From the NCBI GenBank assembly GCA_025934695.1, contig JAICWS010000001.1:1269301-1333300 (forward strand): 64,000 nucleotides of DNA, written 5' to 3'. Source of the stretch: Alphaproteobacteria bacterium. GTDB lineage: Bacteria > Pseudomonadota > Alphaproteobacteria > Micavibrionales > UBA2020. Of the stretch, positions 2,996 through 56,108 are shown one piece after another. The notes beneath the pieces were generated by a model that saw nothing but the letters and a program-made list of their open reading frames with translations, had not been told where the DNA came from and did not search any database. Made by a program: the position numbers and the translations under genes. How positions within the stretch are numbered: position 1 is the first letter of the stretch; each line of letters starts with the position of its first letter.

Positions 2996-4915
2996 ATGGC
3001 ACAGTCATCCACGCAAACGATCCCGGACGAAAGTGAGCTTTTGCGGCGCCAGGCCGCGCAGGCTTTCGGCGCGAACCGCGCCCCGGAGGCCGTCGCGCTG
3101 CTGGAAAAGGCGCATGCCCTGAACCCGAATTCGCCCGAGATCTGCACGGATTTCGCGCGCGTCCTGTGGCGCATGGGCCGACACCATGAAGCGAACGAAT
3201 ATTTTGTCAAGGCTGCAGGCCTTGCGCCGGCCGAGCCTTACATCCTGAACAGCTACGGCGTCTTCCTGATGCATCATATGCGCTATGACGAGGCGCAGGA
3301 GATGCTGACGCGCGCGCTGCAGCTCAAACCCGGCTTCCACGAAATACTCAATAACCTGGGAATGCTGCATCATCGCCGCGGCGACTGGCCGGCGGCGGAA
3401 GAGTATTTCCTGCAAGCTATCCGCGCCAACCCCGCGCTGCCCGCCGCGCACGGCAACCTTGCGGCGCTGCTGCGCGACATGAAGCAAAACGACCGAGCGG
3501 AAACGGAGTATCGCGAAGCCTTGAAATATGCGCCCGGAAACCTCGGCGGCTGGCAGGTGCTGGCGGATTTCTACCAAAGCACCGGTCAATACGACAAGGC
3601 GCTCGAGATCCGCAAGCGCCTCCTGTCGCAGGCGCCCTTCAATGAAAACGCCTGGATTGCGATTTTCGACATGCAGGAAAAGATGAGCCGCCTGGACGAT
3701 GCCCGGGCGACCGTCGCGGACTTCAAGGCGCGCTTCCCTCAGTCCGCCGCCGCCGCGATCGTCGAAGCCCGTCTGCTGCGCCGGGCCGGCAGCCATGTCG
3801 AGGCTCTGTCGCTTCTCAAGGGCCTGCGCCCCTTCCCCGAGGAATCGCCGCCATTCCGCGACCGGCTTTTCGAAATGGGTCTGCTCCATGATCTTCTGGG
3901 CGATGCGGATGCGGCCTTCGAATGTTTCAAGCAGGCGAATGCCTCGCAAATGTCGCTGCCGAGCGCCGCGCGCGTCGATGGAAGCGCTTTTATCGACAGG
4001 ATCGCCCGCTACAGGGAACAATTTACGCCTGCGGTTGCGGCTGCCGTGACGTCGGCGGCGGCCGGCACGGACACATCCGGGCCGGTCTTCATCGTCGGCT
4101 TCCCGCGTTCCGGCACGACGCTGCTCGATCAGATATTGTCGAGCCATCCGCGCGTCACGGTCGCGGACGAAGAGCCCGTGACGAACCGCATGACGATGTA
4201 TCTCGCGCGGAAATACGGCGGCGAACCGCCGTCGGGCCCTGAAGGCTACGAGAGCGGCTACCGCGACTGGCTGAAAAACAATTCCCGTTATCCGGGCTGT
4301 CTTGCGGAAGTGACGGATGCCGACGCCGCCGAAATGCGCCGCATTTTCTTCGCCAGTCACGGCGTGCAGGAAGGCGGCGACGGCGTCTTCGTGGACAAGC
4401 TGCCGATGAATTCGCACCATGCGGCTCTTATCCATCGCGTATTCCCCAAGGCGAAGTTCATTCTCGCGCTCCGGCATCCGTGCGATTCAGTGCTCAGCTG
4501 CTTTATGCAGCAATTCCATCTCAATAACGCGATGGCGTCATTTTCCGAGCTTCAGTCGGGTGCGCGCCTTTATAACGAAACGTTCCGGCTCTGGGATCTC
4601 TACACGCAGTTGCTGCCGCTGCAAGTGCATGCCGTGCGCTACGAGGACGTCGTGGCCGACTTCCGTCCGACGGTCGCAAAGCTGCTCGACTTCCTGGAAC
4701 TCGACTGGAACGACGCGGTTCTCGAATACGATAAGACGGCCCGCAAGCGCGCCATCAGCACGCCCAGCTACCACCAGGTCACCGAAAAAATCTATACCCG
4801 CGCGAGCGGCCGCTGGCAGCGCTACCGTAAGCACATGCAGGACGTCATCCCCCTCCTCGAACCCTATGCAAAAAAGTACGGATATTCGATGGATGAAAGC
4901 GACGCGCAGGAGTAA
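2996..4915 (+). CDS. TPR-sulfotransferase fusion protein, copy 2
   Basis: Tandem paralogue of the preceding gene with the same length (639 residues) and architecture: TPRs, then a sulfotransferase domain with GFPRSGTTLLDQ and RHPCDSVLS. The copies differ throughout the TPR region and much of the sulfotransferase domain, but the last ~290 bp are nearly identical, including a perfect 107-bp run (2699-2805 = 4625-4731), which suggests recent gene conversion. The divergent TPRs may give the copies different acceptors. It ends 7 nt before the convergent aldehyde dehydrogenase gene. Confidence 0.9.
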   Translation: MAQSSTQTIPDESELLRRQAAQAFGANRAPEAVALLEKAHALNPNSPEICTDFARVLWRMGRHHEANEYFVKAAGLAPAEPYILNSYGVFLMHHMRYDEAQEMLTRALQLKPGFHEILNNLGMLHHRRGDWPAAEEYFLQAIRANPALPAAHGNLAALLRDMKQNDRAETEYREALKYAPGNLGGWQVLADFYQSTGQYDKALEIRKRLLSQAPFNENAWIAIFDMQEKMSRLDDARATVADFKARFPQSAAAAIVEARLLRRAGSHVEALSLLKGLRPFPEESPPFRDRLFEMGLLHDLLGDADAAFECFKQANASQMSLPSAARVDGSAFIDRIARYREQFTPAVAAAVTSAAAGTDTSGPVFIVGFPRSGTTLLDQILSSHPRVTVADEEPVTNRMTMYLARKYGGEPPSGPEGYESGYRDWLKNNSRYPGCLAEVTDADAAEMRRIFFASHGVQEGGDGVFVDKLPMNSHHAALIHRVFPKAKFILALRHPCDSVLSCFMQQFHLNNAMASFSELQSGARLYNETFRLWDLYTQLLPLQVHAVRYEDVVADFRPTVAKLLDFLELDWNDAVLEYDKTARKRAISTPSYHQVTEKIYTRASGRWQRYRKHMQDVIPLLEPYAKKYGYSMDESDAQE

Positions 4916-14554: not shown

Positions 14555-15325
14555 CTAAAGCTGGAAGCCCTTGGCGGGATGGCCGGGCGTGCCTTCCGGC
14601 TTTTTCCTGAGTTCGAGCGGCCGGTTCACTTCGATGGTCTCGTGCGTCGATACGGCGGTGGCGTTGAAGGCATCGGCGGGCTTGGCCGCGGCGTCCTGAT
14701 CGTCAGGCACATTTTTCAGCATCGCCCGCAGCATCTCGCTCTGCTTGTCGCCGAAGCTGCTGTAGTTCCCGTAGCTGCCGTTTTGCAGCACTGACAGCGG
14801 GAATTTGCCGGCATTGTCGGCGACCATCGGGTTCGCGCCATGCCCGAGGTAATGCATGACCTTGGAATAGCTCTCGTCCTGGATCGCCCTGAGCAAGGGC
14901 GTCGCACCCTTGGCGTTGCGCGTATTCACATCCAGTCCTTTTGACAGGAGATAATCGCTGACTTTGCTGTCGAAGTTCTGATAAGACCAGTCGGCGGCCG
15001 GAAAGACCGCGTTGCTCGACGGCGGGCTGCGCGTGGCGTTCACATTCGCGCCGCCCTGCTCCACCGCCAGCTTCACGACCGGAAGCAATGACTGTTTGAT
15101 CCCGGCGAACAGCAGCAGGTCCGCATCCGCGCCTTTCTTGAGCGCGAGGCTCAGAAGCGAAGGGTCGACCGAGCCCAGCGTGCCGTGCGTCGTCAGCCCT
15201 TCCACCAGCTTGTCCGGCGTCGCGCCCTTTTCAAGCGACAGCCGCATCATCTCGGCATCGTTGTTGTTGACGCCGCGTTGAAGGACCTCGTCGAGAGCCT
15301 GCTTCTGTTCGGGCGTGCGCGTCAT
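14555..15325 (-). CDS. ankyrin-repeat protein with basic C-terminal tail, copy A
   Basis: About 256 residues from the ATG at 15325, chosen over the track start at 15454 because that lies in the upstream gene. It contains degenerate ankyrin repeats (for example VSDYLLSKGLDVNTRNAKGATPLL in part: GLDVNTRNAKGATPLL). No signal peptide. The C-terminus carries IEVNRPLELRKKP followed by a Gly/Pro-rich end. Immediately upstream (7 nt) is a paralogue with a matching tail. Ankyrin repeats mediate protein-protein contacts; partners are unknown. Confidence 0.85.
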   Translation of the reverse strand: MTRTPEQKQALDEVLQRGVNNNDAEMMRLSLEKGATPDKLVEGLTTHGTLGSVDPSLLSLALKKGADADLLLFAGIKQSLLPVVKLAVEQGGANVNATRSPPSSNAVFPAADWSYQNFDSKVSDYLLSKGLDVNTRNAKGATPLLRAIQDESYSKVMHYLGHGANPMVADNAGKFPLSVLQNGSYGNYSSFGDKQSEMLRAMLKNVPDDQDAAAKPADAFNATAVSTHETIEVNRPLELRKKPEGTPGHPAKGFQL

Positions 15326-15332
15326 TCCATTC

Positions 15333-16016
15333 TCACAGGGTAAAGCCGGATGCCGGCTTGCGTTTGAGTTCGATGGGACGGTTGATCTCGATGGCTTCCG
15401 ATGTTGCAGGGGCCGGACCGCTGTCATTTGCGGGCGCGGCAACGGCGGCGGCATCGCTGCGGCGCTTGGTGTTCGCCATCATCGCCTTGACCAGCGCCAG
15501 CTTCTTGTCGCTATTGTACCAGTCGGCGTCCTCGATGACTTTCAGCGGCACTTTCTGGTCAGCGCAGACCCGCAGCGGATCGGCGTCATGATCGACGAGA
15601 TATTTTATCACTTTCTCCTGCTGCAAGCGGACGGCCGCCATCAGGGCCGTATCACCGCTGGGCGACGGCGCATCGATCTTCGCGCCCTTCGCCAGCAGGA
15701 AATCGCCGACCTCGGCCGAGAAATTTTCGGTCAGCCAGAAGAAAACCGGATAGGCCACGTTGGAACGAAGAACGTTGCCGTCGGAAATTCCGCTGCGGGA
15801 AGCATGGATGTCCGCGCCGTGGTCGATGGCCGCCTTGACCCAGTCCAACCGCCGGGCCGCCACCGCGCTGAACAGCATCATGTCGGCGTCGGCGCCGCTG
15901 TCGACGGCATTCGTCATCATGTCGAGGTCCTGGGCAGCGATTGCCATTTTCAGGGCCTCGTCCAGCGCCTGTTTCTGGACAGCATTCAGGGGGTCTTTAC
16001 TCAAGATCGACTCCAC
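15333..16016 (-). CDS. ankyrin-repeat protein with basic C-terminal tail, copy B
   Basis: 227 residues, paralogous to the next gene: both begin with a QKQALDE segment, carry ankyrin-like repeats (ADIHASRSG, AKIDAPSPSGDTALMAA) and end with the same kind of tail (IEINRPIELKRKP here). A disordered Ala/Pro stretch joins repeats and tail. First gene of a two-gene minus-strand unit. Cytoplasmic by the absence of a signal peptide, unless the tail is an export signal. Confidence 0.85.
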   Translation of the reverse strand: MESILSKDPLNAVQKQALDEALKMAIAAQDLDMMTNAVDSGADADMMLFSAVAARRLDWVKAAIDHGADIHASRSGISDGNVLRSNVAYPVFFWLTENFSAEVGDFLLAKGAKIDAPSPSGDTALMAAVRLQQEKVIKYLVDHDADPLRVCADQKVPLKVIEDADWYNSDKKLALVKAMMANTKRRSDAAAVAAPANDSGPAPATSEAIEINRPIELKRKPASGFTL

Positions 16017-23880: not shown

Positions 23881-24237
23881 TTACGCGATGCCCAGCACGT
23901 GCTCGAGGGGCGGCGGCGAGCCGCCCAGTTCCAGAAGCGCCTGGTGCGCATCCTTGATCGACTGCTTGTTGCCGATGTCCCTGAAGGCGATCACCTGCAT
24001 TGCGCTCGCGGTCGTCGAGGTATTGTAGCCCTTGGCATCGAGGATCGTGGTCATGAGGTAGGAACTGAAATCATAGACCTGGATCAGGATCGAATTGAGC
24101 TCCTTGGTGATGGGCAGGTAACGGCGGTAAAACACGATTTCGTCGTCGAGCCGCTGGTAGCCCTCGAGCCGCCACTTGGCGGTTTCGTCCTTGACGAGTT
24201 TCAGTTCCTTGCGCTTGCCCGCTTCGGTCATGGTCAT
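23881..24237 (-). CDS. unrecognised small protein, paralogue of the 25113 gene
   Basis: 118 residues. It aligns end to end with the 25113 protein: both begin with a basic RxELKL[VI] segment, share GYQ[RK][VL]DD and a QVYDFSSY / DVYDFNDY element, and near the end carry KQSI[KR]DAH[QR]AL[LV]ELGG[SN]PP. I know no named family with this signature. No signal peptide or membrane segment. The two are separated by a convergent Sel1 protein gene. Confidence 0.75.
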   Translation of the reverse strand: MTMTEAGKRKELKLVKDETAKWRLEGYQRLDDEIVFYRRYLPITKELNSILIQVYDFSSYLMTTILDAKGYNTSTTASAMQVIAFRDIGNKQSIKDAHQALLELGGSPPPLEHVLGIA

Positions 24238-25112: not shown

Positions 25113-25559
25113 TCAGGGCCTGGGGGATGCTTTGAGCTTCAGTGGATTGGACACGGACACGTCCCGCGTCAGTTCCAGGACATAGCTCATGATCTCGTCA
25201 ATCGCGGGCGGATTGCCGCCCAGTTCGACCAACGCCCGGTGCGCGTCGCGAATGGACTGTTTGCCTTCGACCTCGGAGAATTTCTCGCGCACTGGCGGCT
25301 GGAAAACGTCATCCTTGCCGTAGGCCAGCGCGTAATGGGTGACGGAGTAATCGTTGAAATCATAAACATCGGTCTGGATCACGATGTGGTCCGTCTTGCC
25401 GGGCACGACGAACACAGGGATCAGCTTGCGCTCAAGCACCGTGAGATCGTCAACTTTCTGGTAGCCGACGATGTCCGGCGCATGGCCGCCAAGATCAGAC
25501 GCCGCAGCGTCAAACTGCTCGATCAATTTCAGTTCGCGCGGTTTCCTGTCTATGTCCAC
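25113..25559 (-). CDS. unrecognised small protein with basic C-terminal tail, paralogue of the 23881 gene
   Basis: 148 residues. Shares the body and the KQSIRDAHRALVELGGNPP element with the 23881 protein, plus the N-terminal RELKLIE. It extends ~30 residues further and ends in VSVSNPLKLKASPRP, an example of the recurrent tail found in this window. Its stop lies 8 nt from the convergent Sel1 gene. Function unknown. Confidence 0.75.
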   Translation of the reverse strand: MDIDRKPRELKLIEQFDAAASDLGGHAPDIVGYQKVDDLTVLERKLIPVFVVPGKTDHIVIQTDVYDFNDYSVTHYALAYGKDDVFQPPVREKFSEVEGKQSIRDAHRALVELGGNPPAIDEIMSYVLELTRDVSVSNPLKLKASPRP

Positions 25560-25697
25560 GGCCTCACCTTTAGCATCTGAAGGGGTTTTCCACAGGGACT
25601 ATAGCGGTGAAATCTTATTATGTCAAAAACTTCCCTGTTGCCATGACCGCCGCCCCCGATAAGATGCGCAGGGAATTTTGAAACAGGAGTAAATCTT

Positions 25698-27812: not shown

Positions 27813-28193
27813 ATGGGCAACAATGATCCAAGGCTGGACATGGCGCGCGAGGAGCTCCGCAAACTGCTGGGTCTCTCCGGTCCCTTCAACCGCGCACAAA
27901 GCAACGGCGGATCGGGCCCGCCGCCATTGCGATCTGCCGCAGTGAATCCTGTTTCAGACTTGAAGAAGACCTATGATGAACTGGCGCGCGGCATCGCCGA
28001 ATTCGACCGGACAATAAAACCCTTCACGGACATCCTTGAAGCGATCGCCGAGCTTCGGTTGCAACCATTGACGGATCTGAAACCGCAAACCGACGTCCCG
28101 TCGCCGTTCATTTTTGACGGCGTTCTTGACCACCCGGTGTCCGTGCGGCGGCGTCCGATCAGCTACCGGTCCCGCTACCTGATCATGGGATAA
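27813..28193 (+). CDS. hypothetical protein with basic C-terminal tail
   Basis: 126 residues from the ATG at 27813. An N-terminal helix (DMAREELRKLLGL), a Gly/Pro-rich stretch and a middle helix (LKKTYDELARGIAEFDRTI) lead to VSVRRRPISYRSRYLIMG at the end, which fits the recurrent tail. Third gene of the small-ORF unit; converges with ppk. Function unknown. Confidence 0.65.
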   Translation: MGNNDPRLDMAREELRKLLGLSGPFNRAQSNGGSGPPPLRSAAVNPVSDLKKTYDELARGIAEFDRTIKPFTDILEAIAELRLQPLTDLKPQTDVPSPFIFDGVLDHPVSVRRRPISYRSRYLIMG

Positions 28194-38280: not shown

Positions 38281-38505
38281 TTAAAAGCCGCCCTTGCGGA
38301 ACTGCAACTGGCGCATGGGTTTCACGGCGAAGGAGGTCACACCAGCTTCCGTATTACGTACGATGCGCGCGTCGCGCTGGGCGCGGACGACCGGCGTGAA
38401 TTTCTGCGCCACGGTTCCCGGAAGAAAACCAATGTCTTTGCAGTTGGTCATCGCGGCCTTCGCCGCCGCGACATCTTCCGGATCCCAGTCCGTTTCCTGT
38501 GTCAT
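38281..38505 (-). CDS. small hypothetical protein with basic C-terminal tail
   Basis: 74 residues; GAGGAC precedes the ATG. It ends in AVKPMRQLQFRKGGF, a variant of the recurrent tail. Two cysteine-poor helices at most; no family recognised. A competing plus-strand ORF (38272-38526) has a weaker start and looks like a shadow. Confidence 0.6.
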   Translation of the reverse strand: MTQETDWDPEDVAAAKAAMTNCKDIGFLPGTVAQKFTPVVRAQRDARIVRNTEAGVTSFAVKPMRQLQFRKGGF

Positions 38506-38617
38506 ATGTCCTCGGCCCTGTTATAGCGTCTGGACAATATACATATTTATTATGTGAATAACAAGTTTTTGAGCCAAATTCTGTTTAACACGCTGATTTT
38601 CAACCTTTTTTATTATT

Positions 38618-38646
38618 TTGCATAATATATTTCCTTGCGGTATATT
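38618..38646 (+). promoter_or_regulatory. sigma-70-type promoter of the 38667 pair
   Basis: TTGCAT (38618-38623) and TATATT (38641-38646) are 17 nt apart in an AT-rich stretch 20 nt before the 38667 start. Confidence 0.5.
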
Positions 38647-38666: not shown

Positions 38667-39359
38667 ATGCTGCAAGCGATTCAGAAATTCGGCCGCGCCC
38701 TGAAGCGCGATTATCTGCCCCACGCGCCGGAGGGAAGCAAGAACTTCACCTTCGCGAAGGAATACGCCATGAACCTCGCGATCGTCTGGGGCGTCTGCGG
38801 CATTCTGGCTTGCGCCCTGCCATTTCCTGCCGTGGGCGGCATTCTGGTTTTCGCGGCTGAGGTCACGCCCGCTATCTTCTTCATGCGCCTGCGCGAGATC
38901 CGCAAAGAGATGAATAAAAGGACTTCCGGCAACATCCTCGATGAACGCGGCGAGATGGTCTGCCTCTCCGGTCCCGGGCGGCAGGTCAGCATTATCGAGA
39001 ACACGCAGAAGCTGGTGCGAAAGATGACGACCGGTTGCGAAGAGACGCCCGACTTGCCCGCGCAGGTCCGCGCCAAGCTGGCGCCCTATGTCGGCGATGG
39101 CGCGGAAGCCGCCGCCAGCGTGAATGCGACACAGAAGAGCCAGCCGCAGGAACGTATTTCCTTCCTGCGCCGCGTTTTCAGCGACGCGGGCGAAAAATTC
39201 TGCGTCGCTGCTGCCGTGCTGACGCCCTTCGGCATCGAGAAGAAAAAGGCGGCCGATTATGCCGCTGCGGTAGATGCCAGCGTCGCGCGCTGCCAGACGG
39301 GCCTCGCGCAGCCCTTAAAAGTAAGATCGCTGCGCCTCAAGCGGGAATTCCTCGCATGA
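38667..39359 (+). CDS. unrecognised membrane protein with basic C-terminal tail, copy A
   Basis: 230 residues: a basic N-terminal amphipathic segment, two hydrophobic segments (about 36-75), then a soluble domain holding GPGRQVSIIENTQKLVRK and LAPYVGDGAEAAASV. It ends in LKVRSLRLKREFLA, a form of the recurrent tail. The next gene starts on its stop codon (ATGA) and is a paralogue. Function unknown. Confidence 0.75.
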   Translation: MLQAIQKFGRALKRDYLPHAPEGSKNFTFAKEYAMNLAIVWGVCGILACALPFPAVGGILVFAAEVTPAIFFMRLREIRKEMNKRTSGNILDERGEMVCLSGPGRQVSIIENTQKLVRKMTTGCEETPDLPAQVRAKLAPYVGDGAEAAASVNATQKSQPQERISFLRRVFSDAGEKFCVAAAVLTPFGIEKKKAADYAAAVDASVARCQTGLAQPLKVRSLRLKREFLA

Positions 39360-40102
39360 AGGAAGCGTTCAAGAAGCTCGGTTGCATGATCCGGCGCGAT
39401 CATCTTTCCAAAACATCAATCGTGACCTGCGCGATGTTCCTGGCCGGCGCGGGCGTCGCTGGTTTGGTGACGGGCGCGCTGCTGCCCTGGTCGATGGCGG
39501 GATTGATTTTCTCTGGCGTGCTGGCCGGCGCTTTCGTTGCCTGCGAAGAACGCTCGATGCGGCGGATGAAAGACGCCGACATGGGCTATTGGCATCAGGG
39601 CGGCATCGGCTATTTCATGCACCTGCAGGGACCGGGCCGCAGCGTGGCTGTGGTGGTAAAGACGCAGAAGCTCCTGGAACGCGCCCTGAAAAAATATGCC
39701 AGGGAAACGGCTGTCCCGCCGGAAGCGATGAAGCGGCTTGAGCCCTATGTCCGCGACGCGCAGGAGGCAGGCCGGGCGGTGAAGGCTGTCGTGCCCAATA
39801 CACCCATCGAATTGCCGACGTTCGAATTCGTCCGGACCTATTTCAACGCGGCGGGCGGCAAGGAGAAAGAGATGATCGCGGCCATCGATCTTCCCCATGC
39901 GCCCCCGCCCTGGGAACTGGAAAAACTCCGGCGCGAAGCGGAAGAACGCCAGCGTGCGGCGGATGAGCTCCTGCAGCGCAAGCTCCGGCTCGAGACGGAA
40001 GAACGCCATCAACGGATTGTCGACGACATTTTACAGGGCACCAGCGGCGCCGTCACCGTCCGTGCGCTGCGGCTCAAGCCGAAATCAGCCCTTTCTCAAT
40101 AG
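39356..40102 (+). CDS. unrecognised membrane protein with basic C-terminal tail, copy B
   Basis: 248 residues, starting at the ATGA overlap. Same plan as copy A: basic start, two membrane segments, GPGRSVAVVVKTQKLLER, LEPYVRDAQEAGRAV. It then adds a long charged coiled coil (ELEKLRREAEERQRAADELL) before the tail VTVRALRLKPKSALSQ. It overlaps the convergent htpG by 29 bp. Confidence 0.75.
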   Translation: MKEAFKKLGCMIRRDHLSKTSIVTCAMFLAGAGVAGLVTGALLPWSMAGLIFSGVLAGAFVACEERSMRRMKDADMGYWHQGGIGYFMHLQGPGRSVAVVVKTQKLLERALKKYARETAVPPEAMKRLEPYVRDAQEAGRAVKAVVPNTPIELPTFEFVRTYFNAAGGKEKEMIAAIDLPHAPPPWELEKLRREAEERQRAADELLQRKLRLETEERHQRIVDDILQGTSGAVTVRALRLKPKSALSQ

Positions 40103-54459: not shown

Positions 54460-54582
54460 TTACCTCGGCTTGAACTGAATGGGCTTGCTGATCTTGACGG
54501 GCGCTTCGGTCGTCATGCCTCTGGCGATCAGCGCATTGAATTTCTCCGTGCAACGCGGGCCAGGCACGTCATCTTTAGGCAT
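54460..54582 (-). CDS. 40-residue ORF carrying the recurrent tail
   Basis: Too short for the ORF track. The ATG at 54582 sits inside the ankyrin stop region (8-bp overlap) behind AAAGGAGGG, and the stop is 2 nt before the HAD start, so it fits the operon exactly. The product ends in VKISKPIQFKPR and has a short helix before it (CTEKFNALIARG). It is almost entirely helix plus tail. Function unknown. Confidence 0.65.
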   Translation of the reverse strand: MPKDDVPGPRCTEKFNALIARGMTTEAPVKISKPIQFKPR

Positions 54583-55114
54583 GTGGCCCTCCTTTGAGCC
54601 GCAATGAGCGGCGGACGACAATGGGGGACTGGGCCGGAAGTCCAGCGTCAGCCCATACGTCGATCGCGGCCCGCTCGTGCTTTTTCTGGCGATGACGGGC
54701 GACGGCCCGGGACCATTCTTCGAGCAGGCGCGCGTTCCTCTCGTTATGCCGCTCCAGCGCGAGATCGGCCGCGGTCTGGCCCTGCGGGTTTTTAAGGGTA
54801 ATATCCGCGCCAGCCTCGATGAGCATGTGGGCCACCTCCAAGTAGGAATGAGTGATGGCTTCCATCAGCGGAGTTTGGCCTCCGCTGCCGGTTGCGTCCG
54901 GGTGAGCGCCACGGTCAAGCAGCGCGTGCACGAGTGGCTGATAGTTGCGCGCCGATGCCACGAGAAGCGCCGTCTTGCCCCATTTGCTTATCAGATTCAC
55001 GTCCGCGCCCTGCTCGACGAGCCGCACCGCTTCCGCCATGCCGGGCCTGCCTTTGTCCAGCGCGGCGAAAACCTGCCAGCCCATCTCCTGCGCCCGAATC
55101 GTCGGCTCCGTCAT
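54575..55114 (-). CDS. ankyrin-repeat protein with basic C-terminal tail
   Basis: 179 residues, with three good ankyrin repeats (VEQGADVNLISKWGKTALLVA; LDRGAHPDATGSGGQTPLMEA; IEAGADITLKNPQGQTAADLA in parts) followed by a basic helix and the tail IVVRRSLRLKGGPHA. Starts on the stop of the upstream ankyrin gene (ATGA). No signal peptide. Confidence 0.87.
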   Translation of the reverse strand: MTEPTIRAQEMGWQVFAALDKGRPGMAEAVRLVEQGADVNLISKWGKTALLVASARNYQPLVHALLDRGAHPDATGSGGQTPLMEAITHSYLEVAHMLIEAGADITLKNPQGQTAADLALERHNERNARLLEEWSRAVARHRQKKHERAAIDVWADAGLPAQSPIVVRRSLRLKGGPHA

Positions 55115-56001
55115 GCCTGCACCGCCGCTTTGGGCGCCAGCGCAACCAGCTTGGCCGTCACCACCGCCACCGTTTCCGCGCCGAGCTCGGCGAATGAACG
55201 CTGCGTCAGCGTGTCTTTGCCGCTCTCATAATCGTGGGAAACAACGGTGCATTGCTTCGTTTCGAAATTGAAAACCTCGGTCAGGCGCAGGCCCTGCGCG
55301 CGCAGAATGCTGACATGCGCGAGTTCCTGGGCCTTCGTCGTCTGCCATTCGGGAATTTTGCTGTCGGCATATTCCTGCAGCTTCACATGAATATCGTGCC
55401 GGCCGCATTCCAGCGCGACGTCGAGGGCGCTGCGGCCTTCCGTATCGCAGCGATCGATGCGGAGGTTTTTGCCGAGCAGCGTATCGACGGTTGCCGCGTC
55501 GCCGTTGCGCGCGGCATAGAACAGCGGCGTCCAGCCATAAGCGTTGCGCGTGTCGGCGTCCGCGCCGTTATTCAGCAGCAGGTCGGCGAGCGGCTTGTTC
55601 CCCGCGGCGACGGCGATGGCATAGGCCGTGTTGCCGCGATGGTCGGTGGAATTGATCTTCGCCCCGGCCGCGAGCATCGCCGCGGCGATCTCCGTCTTGC
55701 CTCTTTCGGCGGCATTCAGGAACGGCGTCGTCATCGAATAGCTGACTTTGGCGTTCGGATTGGCGCCGGCGTCGAGCAGGAGCTTGACCATCTCGGGCGT
55801 GCCCCGTTCGACCGCGACATTCAACGCGTTTTCGGAACGGTAGCCGATGCCGTCGGGCTTCGCGCCTTCCGCGAGCAGCGCCTGCGCGCGCTTGAGGTCG
55901 TTGGCTTCGACGGCGGCGGCCAGCTTGGTCTCCAGTACGCCGGGCGCAGAGAGAAGCCGGGCAACGGTTTTGCCGGCTTTTTTGAGTTTGGTCCAGTCCA
56001 T
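55111..56001 (-). CDS. ankyrin-repeat protein
   Basis: 296 residues from the ATG at 56001 (GAGG upstream; a GTG at 56007 is possible). At least five ankyrin repeats (for example LLAEGAKPDGIGYRSENALN, LLDAGANPNAKVSYSMTTPF, MLAAGAKINSTDHRGNTAYA), then a C-terminal part with VFNFETKQCTVVSHDYESGK that is not ankyrin and not recognised. First gene of a four-gene operon with ankyrin 2, the 40-residue ORF and the HAD protein. Confidence 0.87.
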   Translation of the reverse strand: MDWTKLKKAGKTVARLLSAPGVLETKLAAAVEANDLKRAQALLAEGAKPDGIGYRSENALNVAVERGTPEMVKLLLDAGANPNAKVSYSMTTPFLNAAERGKTEIAAAMLAAGAKINSTDHRGNTAYAIAVAAGNKPLADLLLNNGADADTRNAYGWTPLFYAARNGDAATVDTLLGKNLRIDRCDTEGRSALDVALECGRHDIHVKLQEYADSKIPEWQTTKAQELAHVSILRAQGLRLTEVFNFETKQCTVVSHDYESGKDTLTQRSFAELGAETVAVVTAKLVALAPKAAVQA

Positions 56002-56108
56002 CAGCACCCTCGTTATCGCGGCATCAGGACCGCGTTTAATGTTTCGGCCATTGTAAGGGTTTGCTGATATTATGTCAATTAAATTGAGTGCCGAATTTTC
56101 TTTTTAAT

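Follow-up and report, generated by a model that had tools for sequence, protein, structure and literature searches.

The C-terminal tail in the window

The stretch of DNA analysed here, hereafter the window, spans 64,000 nucleotides of the genome of an uncultured alphaproteobacterium of the order Micavibrionales (genome G000; 4.13 Mb in 7 contigs; the window is C3:1269301-1333300). Several proteins encoded in the window end in a similar basic tail, which is the subject of this report. Two of these tails are found in a reverse-strand operon of three genes, 55111 > 54575 > 54460, named here by their first coordinates. The last open reading frame (ORF; 54460-54582) codes for a mini-protein of only 40 residues, which ends in ISKPIQFKPR (54463..54492; profile score 26.5). 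This ORF overlaps the stop codon of the 54575 gene, was missed by the gene caller and was betrayed by its tail. The middle gene (54575-55084) codes for an ankyrin-like protein with the tail VRRSLRLKGG (54587..54616; score 24.4), and the head of the operon (55111..56001; promoter score 26.7) codes for an untagged protein of the ankyrin cluster. A promoter element, TTGACATAAT, is located at 56069..56078 on the same strand, 77 nucleotides before the start codon.

The first-pass annotation of this DNA reported a recurrent basic C-terminal tail and listed nine examples plus a looser one. The recurrence is confirmed, and all ten quoted peptides are present in the window. On a profile learned across the genome, six of the nine listed examples reach high scores. 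In addition to the two above, these are IEVNRPLELRKKP (14597..14635; score 25.6) and IEINRPIELKRKP (15354..15392; score 22.0) of the ankyrin proteins 14555-15325 and 15333-16016, VSNPLKLKASPRP (25116..25154; score 22.4) of the 148-residue protein 25113-25559, and KPMRQLQFRKGG (38287..38322; score 22.3) of the 74-residue protein 38281-38505, all on the reverse strand. The other three are on the forward strand. RRRPISYRSR (28146..28175; score 12.4) makes the 126-residue protein 27813-28193 a marginal member, and its gene lacks the promoter shared by tagged genes (see below). By profile, KVRSLRLKREF (39318..39350; score 2.6) of the 230-residue protein 38667-39359 and TVRALRLKPKS (40055..40087; score 7.6) of the 248-residue protein 39356-40102 are weak, but their genes form one operon under that promoter. 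The looser ending, that of an AAA gene, scores 5.9 and is not a member.

A recognition tag selected at the protein level

Genome-wide tail counts rest on approximately 1.87 Mb of the G000 genome. Genes were not taken from a curated annotation but called by a Markov model, for which long ORFs of the same genome were the training set. Among 1,723 proteins scored with an iterated profile, 113 reach 14 or more, compared with 1.4 when tails are shuffled and 0.2 for internal segments. These 113 proteins, most of them of ankyrin or leucine-rich repeat (LRR) type, fall into 47 body clusters, and 40 bodies are singletons. The earlier claim that the tail is carried by unrelated bodies therefore stands for the whole set, with the exception that the 14555 and 15333 proteins are paralogues and thus are not independent examples. 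The core of the tail, approximately [IV]-x-V-x-[KR]-P-[LI]-x-[LF]-[KR], is located 1-10 residues before the protein end and has the character of an extended, alternately hydrophobic stretch with basic residues. The consensus of the iterated profile is [HQ]-[DP]-[IV]-x-V-x-[KR]-P-[LI]-x-[LF]-[KR]-x-x-P.

The pattern proposed in the first-pass annotation is matched 64 times in the final 25 residues of 1,555 genes, compared with 7.0 matches expected from the protein bodies, and 6 times in the N-terminal 25 residues. A strict version, [KR]P[LI]x[LF][KR], is present at 36 C-termini, against backgrounds of 1.0 for composition-preserving shuffles and 0.5 for internal segments. Because the profile was learned on the tagged proteins of G000, tests that are independent of its gene calls or of this genome (for the latter, see the dialects below) carry more weight. 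The strict motif terminates 30 called genes out of 1,555, whereas no shadow ORF out of 12,788 ends in it. When all six frames are translated, 68 of 69 matches to a hidden Markov model (HMM) of the tail (at least 12 bits) have their end no more than 20 residues from a stop codon.

The C-terminal tails of G000 are in general enriched in lysine and proline. Because the shuffled and internal backgrounds are low, and because looser basic-x-hydrophobic endings beyond the core show no excess after the motif is masked (15 observed versus 29 shuffled), the excess reflects a specific motif and not composition. The mean nucleotide identity between copies of the 24-nucleotide core is 0.49, and the conserved Pro, Leu/Ile and Lys/Arg positions each use several synonymous codons. 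This variation indicates that selection acts on the protein, and it upholds the earlier conclusion that no DNA repeat is involved. It is nearly certain that the tail is a recognition tag. The proposal that it serves in sorting, secretion or docking is supported by C-terminal matches far above both backgrounds and by the presence of the tail in a sister genome and another genus.

Proteins that carry the tag

Ankyrin proteins account for 35 of 87 tagged proteins, and Pfam yields one match each to the macro-domain, Nudix, LRR_4 and AAA models. A family of ten tagged members is LRR-like by alignment and model. In an AlphaFold model of this family, the predicted confidence (pLDDT) is mostly >90 in the body, whereas the last ~25 residues, including the tag, are at ~50. 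The best PDB matches of the model are to the LRR domains of IpaH, SspH1 and YopM, which are type III effectors, but with E values of at least 0.0025 and TM-scores of 0.3-0.5 this predicted likeness should be read as a resemblance only. Sec-like hydrophobic N-termini are found in 2 of 77 tagged proteins compared with 229 of 1059 others (p=6e-6). Tagged genes adjoin one another (22 adjacent pairs versus 4.8 expected), and the ankyrin and LRR families of the set are clearly duplicated. At least 182 ankyrin-domain matches were found in G000, where scoring covered only 150 of the 395 candidates. Most relatives within the family have 115-167, compared with 0-21 in outgroup families of the order.

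Several other C-terminal features were noted. A second tail class in G000, LDKPxLxxP, is unsupported (5 observed versus 2.2 shuffled), and an LGG helix ahead of the tail shows a modest excess (14 versus 3.6) that is partly due to paralogy. A C-terminal LxxLGG[NS]PP helix is common to small paralogues at 23881-24237 and 25113-25559 of the window and at C3:1483179, of which only the 25113 copy runs on into the tag. A different tail, xxLKxx[HN]Px[RK][YF]R[LV]K, ends three tandem genes elsewhere in the genome (L190, from the C3:765 kb region, positions 86-1980) and is unlike the main motif. The window also carries tandem genes for 639-residue proteins (1070-2989 and 2996-4915) whose C-termini are nearly identical, apparently as a result of recent duplication.

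A promoter shared by tagged genes

The operon heads of tagged genes have ATTTGACATAATA in common, followed in many instances by a TATAnT-like box approximately 17 nucleotides downstream. This promoter is present at 41 of 66 tagged operon heads compared with 91 of 1,097 others (p=5e-25). When halves of the set were held out, 16-23 of 33 unseen tagged heads scored above the 92nd percentile of other genes. In the window, sites are located before the 55111-54575-54460 operon (given above), before the 25113 gene (TTGACATAAT; 25617..25626, reverse strand; score 22.9), before the 38281 gene (TTCACATAAT; 38549..38558, reverse strand; score 22.7) and before the 38667-39356 operon (TTTGCATAAT; 38617..38626, forward strand; score 18.4). 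Because the promoter is found at approximately 6-11% of operon heads in relatives, it represents a promoter class and not an element exclusive to tagged genes.

Lineage-specific dialects of the tail

A tail HMM built from G000 alone has 113 matches in the sister genome G001, none of whose sequences are in the model. The same HMM has 25 matches in G008, which belongs to another genus. The congener G002 has 15 and G006 has 6. At E<=0.01, one borderline match was found across 188 other alphaproteobacterial genomes. For both tail models used in these genome comparisons, E-values were computed per genome with a lenient cut-off, so the outgroup counts (0-5 for the G000 model and 0-7 for the model described next) set the level of noise. 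The tails of G001 and G008 are known as profile matches alone, and triplet enrichment on the small datasets from relatives was too noisy to use.

The tail is therefore present in the sister genome and in another genus. Its absence from sister genomes, which the first-pass annotation would have counted as a refutation, is limited to G007 and to three genomes assigned to the genus of G000 (G003, G004 and G005, with 0, 1 and 0 matches). These three congeners have about as many ankyrin matches as G000 and carry the same type IVB secretion system (T4BSS; see below), and their proteins of the ankyrin and LRR families bear a replacement tail instead. Tails were read in 260 kb of G003, where the C-termini of several proteins fit AP-x-[TP]-A-[RS]-F-x-[PR]-K. 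A model built from six of these tails has 40, 44 and 35 matches in G003, G004 and G005, respectively, and 0-7 in 18 other genomes. Its matches lie in frame on the LRR family that bears VxRPIxLR in G000 (G003:C4:550252-552472; G004:C112), and also on ankyrin proteins. Thus, homologous bodies bear different tails in different lineages, which constitute lineage-specific dialects. Replacement across a repertoire of dozens of proteins is expected if the tag and a single receptor co-evolve. Two heads of genes with the replacement tail were scored for the shared promoter in G003, giving 12.7 and 5.8.

Type IVB secretion genes of G000

Chromosomal loci of the Dot/Icm type are located at C1:63051-67627 and C2:153459-164371 of G000. 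The first includes a coupling ATPase of the DotL/TrbC type, which matches IcmO (DotL) in the PDB with an E value of 1.8e-143 and also matches the NF041447 TrbC model (2.8e-112), under the curated cut-off of that model. Next to dotL is a gene for DotM/IcmP (5e-20 against DotM in the PDB and 9e-46 against Pfam DotM_C). The second locus is a cluster carrying genes for DotH (8.5e-72), two DotI proteins (1e-55 and 6e-38) and DotG (8e-40, under the curated cut-off). This cluster is closed by the gene for a 1,017-residue protein that may be DotO/IcmB, whose only match is a weak one to TraC (0.009). DotH was detected in all but one of 16 genomes of the order (DotH search E 4e-72), the coupling-protein domain TraG-D_C was matched in 19 of 21 genomes, and nearly every genome of the order examined carries DotH or a DotL-type coupling protein. 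DotL of G001 is 88% identical to that of G000.

Markers of other injection machines are missing from G000. There is no VirB4-type ATPase in the genome (no PF03135 match), no VipB of the type VI system, and no match to a phage-type contractile sheath. There is also no second complete FlhB/SctU, with one full flagellar FlhB and a nearby 104-residue C-terminal homologue being found. Tagged genes adjoin dotL in G006 and also in G002, where the tail is weaker, and they are located near the dotH cluster in G000 (5 kb past it) and in G006. Ankyrin genes flank dotH in G000-G003, G006, G008 and G009.

DotL (L096:4722-7295; G000 C1:64722-67298) has a long, net acidic C-terminal tail with four spaced repeats of P-[LFIV]-[NS]-W-x-[DEQ]-V-I-G. 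Four repeats are present in the genus and in G006, and fewer copies or variants occur in several other relatives (loci L114-L117 and L123). The repeats may be a multivalent short motif to which more than one copy of an adaptor could bind. Adaptors are carried by the DotL tail in Legionella. A conserved 161-residue protein is encoded between dotM and dotL (L096:4209-4691). Its predicted fold is pleckstrin homology (PH)-like, it has a single transmembrane helix, and GxPVPAD is its C-terminal motif. This protein is a possible subunit of the coupling complex. As an adaptor candidate it was set aside, because the PH-like model is weak and has no significant structural match.

Comparison with known signals

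Among known systems, Dot/Icm of Legionella offers the closest comparison. Its C-terminal signal is carried by many unrelated cytoplasmic effectors, including ankyrin proteins, and the machine is of the same class, with homologues of DotL and DotM in G000. As with Dot/Icm effectors, the signal in G000 lies at the extreme C-terminus of proteins that lack Sec signals. The Legionella E-block, or Glu-rich motif, is an acidic composition bound by basic patches of DotM, and binding of acidic (Glu) peptides is lost in the DotM R196E/R197E variant (PMC5802825). In contrast, the G000 tag is basic-hydrophobic with a defined sequence, and its consensus includes no Glu-rich E-block. The DotM position aligned to R196 is Asp in 12 of 12 sequences compared. 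Another known signal, the FxxxLxxxK motif bound by LvgA, is helical, was shown in two effectors and is only two-fold enriched in known effectors (PMC7251119). Like the G000 tag, it is a short sequence-specific motif near the C-terminus, and its reader is an adaptor that sits on the tail of DotL. However, the G000 tag is extended, usually lies no more than approximately 10 residues from the end and is found on more than 100 proteins in one genome.

Substrates of VirB/D4 (type IVA) systems carry an Arg-rich C-terminal signal, and those of Bartonella carry a BID domain plus a basic tail (PMC10025392). The positive charge at the C-terminus is a shared feature, but G000 lacks VirB4, and its tag requires hydrophobic positions and usually Pro rather than a spacing of Arg residues. 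One short C-terminal signal on many unrelated proteins is also characteristic of encapsulin cargo peptides, the type IX C-terminal domain and LPXTG. These differ from the tag in sequence and topology. In the literature searched, we found no report of a type IVB system in Micavibrio or of this tail, and the genome paper for M. aeruginosavorus reported no type III or IV system (PMC3189940).

Interpretation

We consider it probable that the tail serves the T4BSS as an export signal of defined sequence, read by a receptor that co-evolves with it. In such a mechanism, an effector-like body would fold in the cytoplasm while its C-terminal strand stayed flexible, the coupling complex would recognize this strand, and the protein would be exported in one step. 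The reader would be the coupling complex of DotL, DotM and a putative adaptor. Tagged proteins would leave the cell and enter prey or a host, and the dialects would result from tail and receptor co-evolving. For reasons of charge, DotM is a weak reader candidate, and the long C-terminal tail of DotL is another candidate platform for recognition.

The first-pass annotation cited type IV secretion as a precedent and noted that the window contains no secretion genes; a type IVB system is indeed encoded elsewhere in the genome. We rate the T4BSS as a fairly likely reader. Several observations weigh against this interpretation. No direct link ties the tail to the machine, no candidate receptor gene has been singled out, and many ankyrin proteins of G000 lack the tag. 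In the outgroup genomes G013-G015 a T4BSS is present, but ankyrin matches are absent and tail matches are at most few, and thus the system does not require the tag. DotM is net basic (+8 to +13) in 12 of 12 sequences examined, making simple charge attraction of the tail unlikely. A mirror image of the Legionella arrangement, with a basic tail drawn to an acidic DotM, was therefore rejected in its simple form. The proposal that the dot/icm operons are under the promoter of the tagged genes was also rejected, because scoring of G000 shows that the promoter is not present there.

The tail might instead be a docking tag for a non-secretory intracellular receptor, such as a scaffold, polar organelle, protease adaptor or storage compartment, that gathers ankyrin and LRR proteins. 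All of the sequence evidence for a tag fits this explanation equally well, and so does the lack of a promoter common to tag genes and dot/icm operons. However, the bodies look like injected effectors of other bacteria, and tagged genes adjoin dotL or the dotH cluster in three genomes, so docking seems rather unlikely to us. Export by a type I, flagellar type III or unknown machine is more doubtful still. Type I and II systems have been reported in Micavibrio aeruginosavorus (PMC3189940), and flagellar FlhB is present in G000. Against this, type II export requires Sec or Tat signals and the tagged proteins lack Sec-like N-termini, and the markers of type IVA, type VI and contractile systems are absent from the genome. 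Type I signals, while C-terminal, are not known to be short basic motifs of this sort, and flagellar type III signals are N-terminal.

Two explanations deny the tail a function of its own, and we give both very little weight. The tails could be copies of a mobile or recombining DNA module whose likeness reflects recent homology, as might be suggested by the side-by-side arrangement of tag genes and the duplication of the ankyrin and LRR families. This is very improbable, as it is already contradicted by the low core identity and the many synonymous codons, by the forty singleton bodies and by the swapping of the tail as a set in G003-G005. Even less credible is a compositional artefact arising from C-termini that are merely rich in Lys, Arg and Pro. 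The general enrichment of Lys and Pro is real, but this explanation is refuted by the composition-preserving shuffles and by the looser patterns that lose their excess after masking.

The broader proposal is that a predatory or epibiotic order possesses a previously unreported type IVB injector whose substrates bear a strict C-terminal password specific to a species group. Passwords would be replaced repertoire-wide between congeneric lineages, with tail and receptor co-evolving and possibly keeping repertoires private. We give this full proposal an even chance of being correct. The lack of a consensus signal that would cover all type IV substrates makes them hard to predict (PMC10025392), whereas the G000 tag has a consensus of sufficient strength for effector candidates to be listed on sequence alone, and the two dialects on homologous proteins provide a built-in natural experiment. 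If the interpretation is true, the tail and the shared promoter together would make the effector set of an uncultured genome readable from its sequence. If confirmed, the system would offer a clean model of signal-receptor co-evolution and a candidate mechanism for the action of these bacteria on prey or protists.
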